Source: Cellvibrio mixtus subsp. mixtus J3-8
GTDB taxonomy: Bacteria; Pseudomonadota; Gammaproteobacteria; Pseudomonadales; Cellvibrionaceae
Length of the DNA: 64,000 nt
Assembly: GCF_000766945.1 (NCBI RefSeq)
Contig: NZ_KN266207.1
Span: forward strand, 637,290-701,289
Direction of reading: 5' to 3'
This document shows positions 2,786 to 21,179 of this stretch, piece after piece. Made by a program: the position numbers and the translations under genes. The notes beneath the pieces are model-generated. The model did no database searches. It was not told the DNA's origin and saw only the letters and a list, made by a program, of their open reading frames with translations. Every line of letters begins with the position of its first letter. Position 1 is the stretch's first letter.

Positions 2786-3088
2786 TTACTGGGCTGTAGG
2801 TGCGGCCTCTGTATTTTCTGTGCAATTCCAGCCCCAGGATTTTTGTTTCTCGGTGAACTCAGCGGCTTTTGCTTCGCATTGCCCTTCTGTGGTCTCGTAG
2901 GTCCAAAGGCTTTGTGTTGCTCCATCCTTGGTGTAGTTAACTGTACAAGGTACTGTTTTGTCACTACTGTAATTTACTTCAATAATTCGCTCGGCATTAT
3001 TCAATGTACAATTATATTTCACTGGTTCAGCAGCAAAAACACTACTGCTCATTGTGTATATACCTACTAACATAATTACATGGCGCAT
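2786..3088 (-). CDS. Small predicted periplasmic protein, function unknown
   Basis: A 100-residue protein with a signal peptide (MRHVIMLVGIYTMSSSVFA, cleavage expected before AEPVKY). The start is set by a clear AAGGAG ribosome site 7 bases upstream; an upstream in-frame start is less likely. The mature part of about 80 residues has four cysteines in NCT, PCTV, QCEA and NCTE contexts, consistent with two periplasmic disulfides. I do not recognise a family. It stands alone between folD and a terminator. Confidence 0.7.
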   Translation of the reverse strand: MRHVIMLVGIYTMSSSVFAAEPVKYNCTLNNAERIIEVNYSSDKTVPCTVNYTKDGATQSLWTYETTEGQCEAKAAEFTEKQKSWGWNCTENTEAAPTAQ

Positions 3089-3148
3089 CTTTTTACTCCT
3101 TAAAAAATACAACGTTATCAATAAGGTTGAACGAATTAGGAATAACCA

Positions 3149-3997
3149 TCAACCGATTTTCTTTTCGCCTGAGTCCACGGTTTGATAAATCAGGGTGTTG
3201 ATTGTCATTGGTCCAACACCACCGGGAACCGGAGTGTAAGCTGCAACACGATCAACTAATGGTTTTAACTCAATATCACCAACACCACCAGGATGATAGC
3301 CGGCATCAACAACGACGGCACCGTCTTTGATCCATTCAGCTTTAATGAATTCCGGTTTGCCAACAGCACCTACCAATATATCTGCCTGTTTAATCAATGC
3401 CGGTAAATTTTGTGTGCGTGAATGGCAGATAGTGACTGTCGCATTAGCGTTTAGAAGCATTAAGGCCATTGGCTTGCCCAGAATAGGGCTGCGGCCTACG
3501 ACAACAGCGTGCTTGCCGGCCAACTCAATTCCATAAGCTTCCAATAAACGCATAATTCCTTTTGGTGTTGCACAGCCGTAAGCCTCCTCACCCATGCTCA
3601 TACGGCCAAAGCCCAGGCAGGTTACGCCGTCTACATCTTTTTCAGCATTGATTGCATCGAAACATAAGCGTTCGTCAATTTGATGGGGGACTGGATGTTG
3701 CAACAATATTCCGTGAACATTCGGATTGTTATTCAGCTCCTGAATTTTGGCCAGCAATTGCTCGGTTGTTGTTGTTGAAGGAAGCTCTACCTTCAAAGAC
3801 TCCATACCAATGCGAGTACAAGCATTGCCTTTCATTTTTACGTAGGTTGCTGAGGCTGGATCATCGCCAACGAGAATGGTTGCAAGAATGGGGGTTTGTT
3901 GGCCATTACTGCGTGCTTTTAACGCAGTAACACGTGCAGAGAGTTCCTGTTCGGTTTTTTCGGCAAGGGCTTTGCCATCCAATACGAGTGCAGACAT
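3149..3997 (-). CDS. folD: Bifunctional methylenetetrahydrofolate dehydrogenase/cyclohydrolase
   Basis: Interconverts 5,10-methylene-, methenyl- and 10-formyl-tetrahydrofolate using NADP, supplying one-carbon units for purines and fMet. The 282 residues match the family length. Visible signatures are YVKMKGNAC with the catalytic Lys, [14 protein letters not shown] (Rossmann region) and [10 protein letters not shown]. The usual QLPLP active-site loop reads QHPVP here, which suggests a subgroup or second paralogue rather than loss of function. It is transcribed leftward as a single gene. Confidence 0.92.
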
Positions 3998-16116: not shown

Positions 16117-17190
<1,074 letters not shown>

Positions 17191-17200
17191 GTGATTTTTG

Positions 17201-17228
17201 AAAAGCCGGGCTAATCCCCGGCTTTTTT
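17201..17228 (+). terminator. Rho-independent terminator of cysB
   Basis: A 10-bp stem AAAAGCCGGG (17201-17210) with CCCGGCTTTT (17217-17226), a 6-base loop and a T-run, directly after the cysB stop. Confidence 0.9.
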
Positions 17229-17349
17229 ATAAGTAATTTTTATTGTTATTCAATAAGTTAACTATTGTTATTAATGCAATATCTGATTGATTTTTGTACC
17301 TCTCATTCTGGCCTTTTTCGTTCTTCTTCATATCCTTGATTTTAAAACT

Positions 17350-17373
17350 TATACATTTTTCTTGTTTTGTACA
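17350..17373. promoter_or_regulatory. LitR/PplR-type operator, site 1
   Basis: TATACA (17350-17355), 12 bases, TGTACA (17368-17373). This fits the form T(G/A)TACA-N12-TGTA(C/T)A that I recall as the consensus for class II LitR (MerR-family light regulators) of Pseudomonas putida. It lies upstream of the photolyase operon, which encodes just such a MerR protein. Binding by that protein is inferred. Confidence 0.7.
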
Positions 17374-17391
17374 ATTTTATGCGTTAATACT

Positions 17392-17415
17392 TATACAATA
17401 TTTAAAACGTGTATA
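17392..17415. promoter_or_regulatory. LitR/PplR-type operator, site 2
   Basis: TATACA (17392-17397), 12 bases, TGTATA (17410-17415): a perfect inverted repeat with the same spacing as site 1. The two sites start 42 bp apart, about four helical turns, which would place bound dimers on the same face of DNA. Site 2 ends 8 bases before the ATG of the first operon gene, so it may overlap the promoter and transcript start. Confidence 0.72.
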
Positions 17416-17423
17416 GGTTTTGT

Positions 17424-18380
17424 ATGGCCAAAATTCCTCTTGGTATTAGCCAATGCTTGATGGGCGAAAAAGTTCGCTATGACGGTAGCCATAAGCGCAA
17501 TCGTTATTTGATGGATGTGCTGGCGGAGGTGGTGGAGTTTCACCCGGTTTGTCCGGAAGTTGCCATCGGCTTGGGTATTCCACGCAAGCCAATACGTCTG
17601 GTTATTAAGGATGGGGAAACCCGTGTACGAGGAATAGAAAACCCGGATTTGGATGTAACCGGGGCCTTGGCTGCCCATGCTGAAAAAGTCGTACAACAAA
17701 TGCCTGATATTTGCGGCTACGTATTCATTCAAAACTCTCCCAGTTGCGGTGTGTTTGGTGTAAAGCGTTATCTCCCCAATGGAAATTCTATTGATCGCGA
17801 AGGGCGGGGCGCTTACGCCAAGCGAATTATGGAGCTAATGCCATTATTGCCCGTGGAAGAGGCCGGGCGACTTAATGATGCAGGTCTGCGAGAAAATTTC
17901 CTGGCCCGGGTTTTTGCCTATTACGATTTCAAAACGCACATCGCCCCTGAACCCACAGCAAAAAAATTGATTGAGTTTTATTCTCGCTATAAATATCAGG
18001 TTATGGCCCATCATGTGCCCAGTTACTTTGCAATCGGGCGCTATCTTTCCAACCTCGCCGCGCGCGATATCCACAAAAGCAGCGAAGAATTTTTTCAGCT
18101 GTTTATGGAAGCCCTAACGCATCACGCCACCCGCAAAGGCAATACCAATGCAATGATGCATCTTCGTGGTTATTTGAAAGCGATTTTGGATACTCAGGAT
18201 AAACAAGAGCTGTCCCAGTTAATTGACTCTTATAAGGCAGGTCATGTACCCCTTGTTGTTCCGTTGACCCTGCTTAAGCATCACTTGATCAAGCTGGACA
18301 ATCCCTATTTAAAATCCCAAACCTTCTGGTCTCCGCACCCGGAATATTTGGGTTTACGTAACCACATTATTGAAGATTGA
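17424..18380 (+). CDS. DUF523-DUF1722 protein (TudS-like iron-sulfur domain fusion)
   Basis: A 318-residue two-domain protein. The N-terminal DUF523 part (about 1-160) carries three conserved cysteines, Cys11 (SQCLMGEKVRYDG), Cys43 (PVCPEV) and Cys108 (NSPSCGVFG). In the characterised 2-thiouracil desulfurase TudS of this family, such cysteines hold a [4Fe-4S] cluster. The C-terminal DUF1722 (about 185-305, YKYQVMAHHVPSYFAIG) is of unknown role. ATG 17424 is preferred over a GTG at 17409 that lies inside operator site 2. It leads a four-gene operon with a MerR regulator, an NTF2-like protein and photolyase, suggesting a role in UV or light stress such as repair of damaged thiolated bases (inference). 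Confidence 0.85.
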   Translation: MAKIPLGISQCLMGEKVRYDGSHKRNRYLMDVLAEVVEFHPVCPEVAIGLGIPRKPIRLVIKDGETRVRGIENPDLDVTGALAAHAEKVVQQMPDICGYVFIQNSPSCGVFGVKRYLPNGNSIDREGRGAYAKRIMELMPLLPVEEAGRLNDAGLRENFLARVFAYYDFKTHIAPEPTAKKLIEFYSRYKYQVMAHHVPSYFAIGRYLSNLAARDIHKSSEEFFQLFMEALTHHATRKGNTNAMMHLRGYLKAILDTQDKQELSQLIDSYKAGHVPLVVPLTLLKHHLIKLDNPYLKSQTFWSPHPEYLGLRNHIIED

Positions 18381-18381
18381 G

Positions 18382-19296
18382 ATGGCGACAGCATTGTTAA
18401 CAGAGATTGCGGAGCCGAATTTGGTTCCCATTCGCGAAATTTCCCGTGTAACTGGTGTAAATACTGTAACCCTGCGTGCATGGGAAAGACGTTACGGATT
18501 GTTAGTCCCCCTGCGCACGTCCAAAGGCCACCGCTTGTATACTCACGACGATGTCCAACGGGTCCAGGAAATTCAACTCTGGTTAAGCCGGGGAGTTGCG
18601 ATTAGTAAGGTAAAGGCTTTGCTCGCACAAAAAAAACTGCATGACTGTATCGAGGAAATTGATTCAGTGTGGGAGGATTTGGCCGCACAAATTTATCAAC
18701 ACATTAATGCCTTTCATCGCCCGCGCCTTGAACATGTACTGTCCGATGTTTTTGCGCTTTATCCTGTTGATATGGTTGCCGATTATTTGCTGGTGCCATT
18801 AATCAAAGGTTTGCAGGGAAATGCCCTTGGGCAGGCCGCGCAACATGCATTCTTTTTCAATGTATTACAGGAACATTTACAGGCTGCCATATACAGGCAG
18901 CGTCAGGTGGCGCACGGTGAAAAAGTATTATTGGTGTCCTTACCCTGCAATCCGCTCTATTCAAGCGATCTTGAATCTTTACTGATAAATTACAATTGCC
19001 TGGTGCATCAATTTCAAGCGGAATATTTGGGGCATCTGGATTTGAAAGAGGCTCAGCTTTGCGCGGAAGCATTGCATGCAAAAATAATCGTTTTGGTGGG
19101 GTATGGAGCCCTCAATGCCACTGAGTTGCAGCTACACTTGACGTCATGGCGAGAAAAAAATGCTATGCCCATTGTGTTGGCGGGGAATCTGGCGTCGCTG
19201 TATCCAGCGTTGGGTTTGGATAAGGGCGCAGCAGTACATCCCTGCGCAACGATGCAACAAATCCAGGCAACAATTAATCAATTAGTAAAGGGATAA
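18382..19296 (+). CDS. MerR-family regulator, LitR class II-like
   Basis: A 304-residue regulator. The MerR winged HTH covers about residues 17-85 (VNTVTLRAWERRYGLL, SKGHRLYTHDDVQRV). A C-terminal half of about 200 residues follows, shaped like the B12-binding fold of CarH/LitR. The cobalamin-binding DxHxxG motif is not present where expected (the region reads SLPCNPLYSSDL). It therefore resembles class II LitR/PplR, which in Pseudomonas depends on a LOV photoreceptor rather than B12. No LOV gene is in this window. It starts one base after the preceding stop and likely autoregulates through the operators at 17350-17415. Confidence 0.85.
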   Translation: MATALLTEIAEPNLVPIREISRVTGVNTVTLRAWERRYGLLVPLRTSKGHRLYTHDDVQRVQEIQLWLSRGVAISKVKALLAQKKLHDCIEEIDSVWEDLAAQIYQHINAFHRPRLEHVLSDVFALYPVDMVADYLLVPLIKGLQGNALGQAAQHAFFFNVLQEHLQAAIYRQRQVAHGEKVLLVSLPCNPLYSSDLESLLINYNCLVHQFQAEYLGHLDLKEAQLCAEALHAKIIVLVGYGALNATELQLHLTSWREKNAMPIVLAGNLASLYPALGLDKGAAVHPCATMQQIQATINQLVKG

Positions 19297-19305
19297 CTCG
19301 TTACT

Positions 19306-19761
19306 ATGACCCACAATGCTCCAATACTTCCCCTTAGTGTTCCGCAAAAAATTCGAAATGTTTATTTGCGTTTCGATAAAAAAATACTAGGTAACCTGGC
19401 TGATGTTTACAGCGAAGATATCCAATTTCGCAATCCATTAAATGCAGTAAATGGTTTATCTGAACTGCAAAAGTATTTCAGTGAATCTATGGTGAATTTA
19501 TTGGAATGCCGTTTTGAATTTCATCACTCAATGGAAATGCCCGAACGCGGCGAGGCTATGTTATTTTGGACCATGCATTATCGCCATAAAAAACTTATTG
19601 GTGGAAAAGCCCTGGAGTTAACCGGAAATTCGCACTTTTTGTATAAAGATAAAGTGTATTACCACCGCGATTATTATGATGCAGGTTCCATGGTATATGA
19701 ACATTTACCGTTAATGGGATTTGCAATTCGCCGGATAAAGAAACGAATGGGTGCTAAATGA
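19306..19761 (+). CDS. NTF2-like (SnoaL-fold) protein of photolyase operon
   Basis: A 151-residue protein recognised as nuclear transport factor 2-like from its cone-fold pattern: an LGNLADVYSEDIQFRNPLN-type opening (about residues 29-47) and later HSMEMPERGEAMLFWTMHY. Members at this position recur in photolyase operons of pseudomonads and relatives. The reaction or ligand is unknown. Its stop overlaps the phr start (ATGA-type, 4 bp), so the two are translationally coupled. Confidence 0.75.
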   Translation: MTHNAPILPLSVPQKIRNVYLRFDKKILGNLADVYSEDIQFRNPLNAVNGLSELQKYFSESMVNLLECRFEFHHSMEMPERGEAMLFWTMHYRHKKLIGGKALELTGNSHFLYKDKVYYHRDYYDAGSMVYEHLPLMGFAIRRIKKRMGAK

Positions 19762-21179
19762 CAGCGTTGGTGTGGTTTCGCCATGATTTGCGGGTACATG
19801 ATAACCCCGCATTGTTTAAAGCTGCTGAAATCGGACAGGGTGTTGTTGCTGTTTACGTTCATTGTGAAGCCTATGTTCGCCTGCACTCCATCGCACCGGT
19901 GCGCTTGGATTTTGTGCGCCGCCATTTGCATACCCTTGTGAATGATCTGGCTGCATTGAACATTTCCCTTCAGGTAATTCATGTAACCAAACCAGCAGAA
20001 ATTGCACCAGCACTACTACGGCTGGCGCAGCAGTTAAATGTGAGCCATTTGTTTTTTAATGCTGAATACCCGGTTAATGAACTCAATCGTGATCAGTCAG
20101 TAAACCAACTGCTGCGTGAGCAGGGAATTTTGGTAAAACGTTGTCATGATCGCTGCATAGTGCCGCCGGGTATGATTCGCAATGGGCAGGGCGATCCTTA
20201 TAAAGTATTCACTGCATTTAAAAAGAAATGGTTGCAAACCGTGATCCCGGTAAATATGAAACCTTATGGCGCGCCGCCCGTACAGCCGGTAATAAATAGT
20301 AAACGCGCCTCAATAAAAGAAATCGATCAATTATTTACGGCACATGATTTACGGGATTTATCAGAACTGTGGCCCGCAGGAGAAAAGGAAGCATATCGTC
20401 GCCTTGATTTATTTATCGAAAAGTCCATAACTCGCTACCAGGATCAACGGGATTTTCCTGCGATTGATGGAACCTCGACACTATCGCCATATCTTGCTGT
20501 TGGATCAATTTCACCGCGCCAGGCAATCGCGGCGGTGTTGGCTTTTACCCGCGGTGAATGGGAAGGGGGAAATGCCGGGGCAAACTGCTGGATAGGTGAG
20601 CTTATCTGGCGAGAGTTTTATCAGCATGTCGTTGTCGATTTTCCACAAGTTTGCAAGCGCAAAGCAATGCAAGCCCATACAGAAGCATTTCCCTGGAGTT
20701 ACAACCCAACTTTTTTTAACGCCTGGTGTGAAGGTAGAACGGGTATTCCCCTCGTTGATGCTGCCATGCGTCAATTAAATGAAACCGGATGGATGCATAA
20801 TCGGCTGCGCATGGTTGTGGCCATGTTTCTCACTAAAAATTGCCAAATCGATTGGCGATTGGGAGAAGAATATTTTATGTCGCAATTGGTAGATGGGGAT
20901 TTTGCGGCCAATAATGGCGGCTGGCAGTGGAGTGCATCCACTGGTACAGATGCAGCACCGTATTTCCGCATTTTTAATCCTGTCAGCCAATCTGAGCGTT
21001 TTGATCCAAATGGTGAATTTATTCGACAATGGGTTCCAGAGCTTGCCCATCTGTCTAACCGGCAAATTCATAATCCGCCAGCATTGGGTAATTATCCGGC
21101 GCCATTGGTGGATTTGTCTGAAAGCAGAAAATCCACCATTGCATTATTTGCGCAATTGCCCGGTTTCGCTGCACATTAA
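19758..21179 (+). CDS. phr: Deoxyribodipyrimidine photolyase (class I CPD)
   Basis: Blue-light-driven repair of cyclobutane pyrimidine dimers, with FAD as catalyst and probably a folate antenna. The 473-residue protein matches E. coli PhrB (472). The N-terminal antenna domain starts ALVWFRHDLRVHDNPAL. The C-terminal FAD domain has TSTLSPYLAVGSISPRQA, RTGIPLVDAAMRQL, the WMHNRLRMVVA motif and TGTDAAPYFRIFNP. It is the last gene of the operon that starts at 17424. The transcript probably ends at the hairpin at 21191-21213. Confidence 0.96.
   Translation: MTALVWFRHDLRVHDNPALFKAAEIGQGVVAVYVHCEAYVRLHSIAPVRLDFVRRHLHTLVNDLAALNISLQVIHVTKPAEIAPALLRLAQQLNVSHLFFNAEYPVNELNRDQSVNQLLREQGILVKRCHDRCIVPPGMIRNGQGDPYKVFTAFKKKWLQTVIPVNMKPYGAPPVQPVINSKRASIKEIDQLFTAHDLRDLSELWPAGEKEAYRRLDLFIEKSITRYQDQRDFPAIDGTSTLSPYLAVGSISPRQAIAAVLAFTRGEWEGGNAGANCWIGELIWREFYQHVVVDFPQVCKRKAMQAHTEAFPWSYNPTFFNAWCEGRTGIPLVDAAMRQLNETGWMHNRLRMVVAMFLTKNCQIDWRLGEEYFMSQLVDGDFAANNGGWQWSASTGTDAAPYFRIFNPVSQSERFDPNGEFIRQWVPELAHLSNRQIHNPPALGNYPAPLVDLSESRKSTIALFAQLPGFAAH

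Follow-up and report, generated by a model that had tools for sequence, protein, structure and literature searches.

We analyzed two tandem sites that precede the genes rudS, litR, a snoaL-like gene and phrB in a 64,000-nucleotide stretch of the genome of Cellvibrio mixtus subsp. mixtus J3-8 (contig NZ_KN266207.1, positions 637,290 to 701,289; hereafter, the window). On the basis of the sequence, it is highly probable that the two sites form a tandem operator for LitR and bracket the core promoter of an autoregulated rudS-litR-snoaL-phrB operon, which LitR would repress and which light or photo-oxidative stress would release. In the proposed mechanism, LitR, the product of the second gene, would bind Site 1 and Site 2 and thereby cover the -35 hexamer, located in Site 1, and the -10/start region, located beside and in Site 2, resulting in repression. 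Light, or the accompanying photo-oxidative stress, would inactivate LitR, and the release of the promoter would lead to the joint synthesis of a tRNA 4-thiouridine eraser, a photolyase, and more LitR. The eraser would remove the near-ultraviolet target in tRNA, and the extra LitR would shut the operon again.

As listed in Table 1, Site 1 (TATACA-N12-TGTACA) and Site 2 (TATACA-N12-TGTATA) match the consensus TRTACA-N12-TGTAYA with 0 mismatches each, and their starts are 42 bp apart. The original prediction had given this pair, with its coordinates, identical N12 spacing and 42-bp offset, all of which agree exactly with the window sequence. It had also given the consensus T(G/A)TACA-N12-TGTA(C/T)A for class II LitR, and this is the operator given for PplR1 in the available passages of PMC9758184. 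No other exact site is present in the window. When up to 2 mismatches were allowed, 11 matches were found compared to 6.79 expected, and because 9 of 100 shuffles also reach 11, only the exact pair is notable within the window.

In the whole genome (5,183,709 bases in 50 contigs), it was found that there are 4 exact sites, including Site 1 and Site 2. The third precedes a gene that by eye resembles a TonB receptor, and the fourth is within a small open reading frame; inspection of the neighbouring genes gave no link of either one to light or repair genes, and these two sites look like chance occurrences. The genome-wide scan suggested as a check in the original prediction yielded few sites, half of them before rudS, but did not lead to further light or repair genes. 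In 21 genomes of the genus, with one strand counted, a hand count gave 41 exact N12 sites, of which 33 lie in the rudS promoter. Because a reversed control pattern had 17 matches (also a hand count), more than the remaining 8 sites in 7 genomes, the Cellvibrio LitR apparently controls one promoter, as far as exact N12 sites show.

The pair is conserved within the genus. LitR-bearing genomes were defined by a LitR protein match at 1e-20, and in 19 of 19 such genomes a pair without mismatch is present before rudS, consisting of two N12 sites in 14 genomes and containing one N11 or N13 site in 5 (G294, G295, G297, G299 and G302); the pairs of G296 and G305 were taken from genome scans and locus L240. 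The spacing, counted by hand, is 42 bp in 14 genomes, 41 bp in 3, 43 bp in 1, and 48 bp in G289. The 2 of 21 genomes without litR (G288 and G304), in which rudS followed by phr is kept, have no pair before rudS: G288 retains one site with a mismatch, and G304 retains none.

A wider comparison covered 101 loci, in which a pair was defined as two sites of N11 to N13 with at most 1 mismatch per site. Among the loci with litR, 68 of 90 have a pair before rudS, versus 1 of 11 among those without it (Fisher 2.9e-5, with kinship among the loci ignored); the counts are 65 of 87 versus 4 of 14 when litR directly downstream is counted alone. Adding six distant LitR loci gave 68 of 96 versus 1 of 11 (Fisher 1.1e-4, kinship again ignored). 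Elsewhere in the 101 loci (866,724 bases in all), the same pair finder returned 0 pairs. Left out of the comparison were 17 loci that were duplicates (by a coarse key; L171 and L194 are perhaps not duplicates), incomplete or mis-anchored (L059, L183 and L240), as well as L063 and L238 (incomplete upstream) and L038 (no rudS).

Use of the sites by some other DNA-binding protein, or a chance palindromic pair, would fit half-sites that are short and AT-rich and a genome that holds two further chance-like sites, but this is extremely improbable in view of the conservation of the pair in every LitR-bearing genome of the genus, its absence from both genomes without litR, and the lack of pairs elsewhere in the 101 loci. 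The original prediction had named the MerR protein of this operon as the binder of both sites, which is well supported by the sequence comparison because the sites match a published operator and the pair and litR are present and absent together in the genus. The two sites are very likely LitR operators.

Loss of litR was observed in several loci of the family. In L241 (from G288), L242 (from G304) and the Gilvimarinus loci L161, L163, L164 and L165, litR is gone, rudS and phr are close together, and the operators are decayed or absent, with the absence of litR from Gilvimarinus judged from the fetched stretch only. These loci probably represent repeated losses of the LitR regulator within the family. 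In genome G293 (L249, C1:1055000-1061000), litR is split between two frames that overlap (residues 1-180 and 174-304 of the query), and both operators are intact; by its sequence, this split is a frameshift or sequencing error.

The relation of the two sites to the core promoter was evaluated by comparison with relatives. In 39 promoters, mostly from Pseudomonas, with a site spacing of 49-53 bp and an N12 Site 1, TTGACT ends the Site 1 spacer in 38, and a TATGAT-like hexamer 16 nucleotides further on scores best in all 39 (exact TATGAT in 26). The P6650 promoter of P. mendocina is described in the available part of PMC9758184 as TTGACT-N16-TATGAT, with one site over the -35 and the other between the transcription start and the ATG. 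Because this is the same geometry as that of the 39 promoters, a set that P. mendocina itself lies outside, PME6650 is probably rudS, as judged by promoter likeness. In 17 Cellvibrio promoters (41-43 bp spacing, N12 Site 1), the -35 place is occupied by TTGnnn in 17 of 17 (TTGCTT in 6, TTGCTA in 4, TTGTTT in 3, and others in 4), and a weak -10 (for example, TAAAAC or TATAAA) scores best at a distance of 17 nucleotides in 12, 18 in 3, and 15 in 2, with Site 2 starting immediately after it. Site 2 is about 8 bp nearer in Cellvibrio than in Pseudomonas. In the window, the presumed spacer between the -35 and -10 is 17 nucleotides for TAATAC and 18 for AATACT, of which AATACT had the script's best score. 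Site 2 begins 0-1 nucleotides past the presumed -10, overlaps the expected transcription start, and touches a Shine-Dalgarno-like AGG at 17415-17417.

It had been suggested that the two sites lie on one DNA face and are bound cooperatively. This part of the original prediction is not supported: the 42 bp found here correspond to 4.0 helical turns, whereas elsewhere the pairs mostly have a spacing of 48-53 bp, with 50 bp (4.76 turns) the most frequent in Pseudomonas-type loci, and in P. mendocina, PmlR2 protects a single broad region that spans both sites (PMC9758184, available passages). Because binding on one face is not conserved, simple promoter occlusion is the better reading. The spacing probably follows the promoter geometry, with no need for one helix face.

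Classical MerR-activated promoters have a spacer of 19-20 nucleotides, compared to the presumed 17 or 18 here, and the sites bracket the promoter. It is therefore very unlikely that LitR is a classical MerR-type activator, one that twists a long spacer, even though it belongs to the MerR family and the Vibrio cholerae MerR protein is termed a suppressor or enhancer in the passages available from PMC5241685; furthermore, PmlR2 is reported in PMC9758184 (available passages) to repress in vitro.

Repression at this promoter would act on all four genes. The rudS and litR genes are separated by 1 bp and litR and snoaL by 9 bp, and snoaL and phrB overlap by 4 bp; because of these distances, rudS-litR-snoaL-phrB very likely forms one operon. 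The sites had been described as directly preceding an operon for a MerR regulator and a photolyase, and the operon does adjoin them, but its first gene is rudS, with the MerR gene second, the SnoaL-like gene third, and the photolyase gene fourth. The rudS product of the window has a TudS domain fused to DUF1722, as in RudS, and the gene is 88% identical to rudS of Cellvibrio sp. 79. Some relatives also have a SnoaL-like gene between litR and phr, and others lack it. Upstream of the sites, a terminator-like hairpin was read by eye, and an automatic scan of 17100-17500 reported 0 terminators.

Table 1. Positions in the window of the LitR operator sites, the presumed promoter elements, the genes of the operon, and the upstream hairpin.
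Feature	Coordinates	Strand	Basis
Operator Site 1	17350..17373	+	Exact consensus match; kept upstream of rudS in relatives
Presumed -35, TTGTTT (final 6 nucleotides of the Site 1 spacer)	17362..17367	+	Aligned position in relatives; weak by consensus
Presumed -10, TAATAC (17385-17390) or AATACT (17386-17391)	17385..17391	+	Aligned position in relatives; inferred
Operator Site 2	17392..17415	+	Exact consensus match; conserved, N11-N13 in relatives
rudS (from its ATG): 2-thiouracil desulfurase (TudS/DUF523) + DUF1722, tRNA 4-thiouridine desulfidase	17424..18380	+	PF04463 1.5e-35, PF08349 8.4e-38; RudS paper
litR: MerR-family helix-turn-helix + 4-helix bundle + Rossmann domain	18382..19296	+	PF13411 1.1e-17; predicted model
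SnoaL-like protein	19306..19761	+	PF12680 2.9e-09
phrB: deoxyribodipyrimidine photolyase	19758..21179	+	PF03441 7.6e-81, PF00875 1.9e-45; PRK10674 8.3e-152
Terminator-like hairpin (GCCGGG-CTAATC-CCCGGC and a following T run) behind the LysR-family gene located upstream	17201..17228	+	Read by eye

Several results weigh against repression by LitR with release by light. By the pair rule, 22 of the 90 litR loci have no pair, although 19 of these 22 still have one site, and none of the six more distant litR loci outside the 90 (L034, L035, L036, L040, L042 and L049) has a pair. Conversely, locus L218, without litR, contains a pair in which each site has one mismatch, and outside the genus "without litR" means that no litR was found in the fetched stretch, the genome beyond it not being covered. 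A promoter scan of 17100-17500 returned 0 sigma-70 promoters, and the hexamers in Table 1 are weak and placed by alignment. Lastly, a LOV domain was sought in the J3-8 genome, and all 5 PAS matches (the fifth being L244) are without the LOV cysteine; a search of the same genome for a short-LOV protein at 1e-15 gave 0 matches.

The LitR protein was examined for a B12-dependent input. The predicted model (predicted local distance difference test score, 85) consists of a helix-turn-helix (HTH), a helical bundle and a Rossmann domain, and the best PDB matches in a fold search were CarH 5c8e, 5c8f and 5c8d; as modelled, the fold is like that of CarH but lacks the B12 motif. The motif [ED]xHxxG is absent from the window LitR, and no Pfam B12 domain, including PF02310, was matched in it at E up to 5, with 1 of 13 members matching at E 0.12. 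Four helices lie within residues 86-174 of the model; PF02607 (B12-binding_2) is unmatched in the window LitR and is matched by 2 of the 13 aligned members. In the 13-row alignment, the last invariant column is at residue 128 and none is in the Rossmann part (in which some rows are incomplete), which speaks against a conserved pocket. The cysteines at residues 89, 189, 206, 227 and 288 do not include an invariant column. Compared with the LitR of L184, a syntenic Pseudomonas locus, identity is 45/67 in the HTH and 42/154 in the rest of the protein.

In a phylogenetic tree, the LitRs of the Cellvibrio family form one clade of 23 rows (support 99/97), separate from a syntenic Pseudomonas-type clade of 9 rows (100/100) that includes the G289 and G162 copies, and apart from a LOV-adjacent clade of 5 rows. 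Ten rows from other families form a further group, in which 7 match a loose B12 motif, which L075, in the own-family clade, also matches. PplR1, PmlR1 and PmlR2 are outside this tree, in which the deep branch order is not settled, and because its clade is apart from the syntenic Pseudomonas LitRs, the assignment of the window LitR to class II is unsettled. No LitR paralogue was found in the J3-8 genome at 1e-20; a MerR gene at C8:75760 was set aside as TipA-like by eye. The LitR rows of L211 and L202, from Cycloclasticus and Porticoccaceae metagenome bins, are nearly alike despite their different family labels, which suggests transfer or mislabelled binning.

The search for a LOV partner was extended beyond the J3-8 genome, in which the codon pattern NCRxLQ (to which the DCRFLQ form is invisible) had 9 matches, none of which is in frame with a LOV domain. 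NCRFLQ matches in other genomes of the genus were rejected, as no LOV domain was present in the loci inspected. In 144 genomes of the family, the short-LOV search gave 18 matches, of which 3 have [DN]CRFLQ: the short LOV protein of G289, a 574-amino-acid protein in G332, and a 1255-amino-acid protein in G284 (no LitR). A fourth match, in G413 (no LitR), has the cysteine in another context. A short LOV protein is thus present in 1 of 47 LitR-bearing genomes of the family, G289.

Locus L247 of G289 (C1:2683000-2692000) contains the short LOV gene (2872-3327, DCRFLQ), a second LitR, the pair with 48-bp spacing, and rudS-litR. The LOV genes adjoin the second LitR and operator in G289 and likewise in Azotobacter and Stutzerimonas loci, with whose LitRs those of G289 group in the tree, and no native LOV-less cassette was found in G289. 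It is likely, as judged from these sequences, that G289 holds a Pseudomonas-type cassette by horizontal replacement.

The J3-8 genome encodes one BLUF protein, of 138 amino acids (L053 5400-5816, C16), near alpha/beta-hydrolase-like and PAS hybrid-kinase-like genes (named by eye) and with no LitR operator nearby. A short BLUF protein could be the photoreceptor for LitR, in the manner of BluF and BluR in Escherichia coli, a precedent named in the available passages of PMC9758184, and BLUF is present in 10 of the 19 LitR-bearing genomes of the genus. However, 9 of the 19 have none, BLUF and LitR occur together in 25 of the 144 family genomes with no association (Fisher 0.48), and no operator at ≤1 mismatch was present in 30 BLUF loci fetched from among more matches listed; a BLUF input is therefore unlikely. 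Neither a short LOV protein nor BLUF was found in 22 of the 47 LitR-bearing genomes of the family. An alternation of BLUF and LOV across the genus was considered and dropped after the protein searches found a single real short LOV protein, in G289.

Taken together, the sequence comparisons indicate that the signal probably reaches LitR neither through a short LOV protein nor through adenosyl-B12 at the canonical site. We tentatively propose that the LitR of Cellvibrionaceae is a repressor responsive to light or photo-oxidation that senses the signal itself, by another chromophore or by redox, or through another partner, with the Pseudomonas operator unchanged. An equally tentative alternative has the same operator and repressor, but the signal would be reactive oxygen or a different light- or stress-derived product, as proposed for V. 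cholerae VCA0056. This would agree with the lack of a LOV protein in the J3-8 genome and of a B12 motif in its LitR, and, in the available passages of PMC5241685, a V. cholerae ChrR/MerR double mutant was blind to blue light, whereas a triple photolyase/cryptochrome mutant was not. An oxidant reading is opposed by the position of the LitR cysteines outside the invariant columns.

The repressor system proposed for Cellvibrio may be compared with known ones. A search of the open-licence literature, judged by title and the start of the abstract, found no report of a Cellvibrio LitR. The RudS paper describes operons of RudS, LitR and PhrB as responsive to light; they share with the window a TudS-DUF1722 gene together with LitR and PhrB, and Cellvibrio is unmentioned in the passages available. 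In V. cholerae, VCA0056 is a MerR gene beside phr (VCA0057) in a blue-light operon for which the authors found no photoreceptor, and this phr-linked MerR protein is needed, with ChrR, for the blue-light response; VCA0056 is tied to 63 of 222 blue-light genes (PMC5241685, available passages) and is compared here with the Cellvibrio LitR by description only. The available part of PMC11976125 concerns ChrR and another photolyase gene and has no bearing on LitR. The class I LitR/CarH proteins, which respond to adenosyl-B12, share with the window LitR, as modelled, the HTH, 4-helix bundle and Rossmann fold and are the best PDB matches, but they carry the B12 motif, whereas the window LitR has neither the motif nor a Pfam B12 domain. 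Class III LitR reportedly has a new mode of light sensing (PMC9758184, available passages); the class III-V LitRs (Burkholderia, Vibrio, Micrococcales), perhaps with VCA0056 among them, were likened by description only, and one of these classes could include the Cellvibrio LitR. In L034 and L036, from other families, rudS, litR and phr are clustered and the LitRs match the B12 motif, so that the same output genes seem to be paired with different light inputs.

The closest likeness is to the class II PmlR2/PplR system of P. mendocina and P. putida, with which Cellvibrio shares the operator consensus, two tandem sites, a -35 within Site 1, and a similar HTH; the syntenic Pseudomonas loci also share the rudS-litR-phrB order. 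In that system, a blue-light-activated short LOV protein relieves the repression by PmlR2 (PMC9758184, available passages). This partner is a trait of the system studied that lies outside the class definition, and none was found in the J3-8 genome. Furthermore, the PmlR2/PplR sites are about 50 bp apart compared to 42 bp, 19 target genes are given in the passages available compared to apparently one promoter, and the Cellvibrio LitR is in a clade other than that of the syntenic Pseudomonas LitRs. These results extend the light switch of Pseudomonas to another family of bacteria on genome-wide evidence. They suggest a constant operator and output (tRNA 4-thiouridine erasure and photolyase) with a changing input, which is LOV in Pseudomonas and, in other families, perhaps B12. 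With a regulon of apparently one promoter, Cellvibrio is a very simple setting for finding the input of LitR, and G289, as a natural swap to the LOV version, makes the question of the input directly testable. The operator, the layout and the output are known from Pseudomonas, and the Cellvibrio version is a variant because of its separate LitR clade, single-promoter regulon, shifted Site 2, and missing LOV or B12 input.
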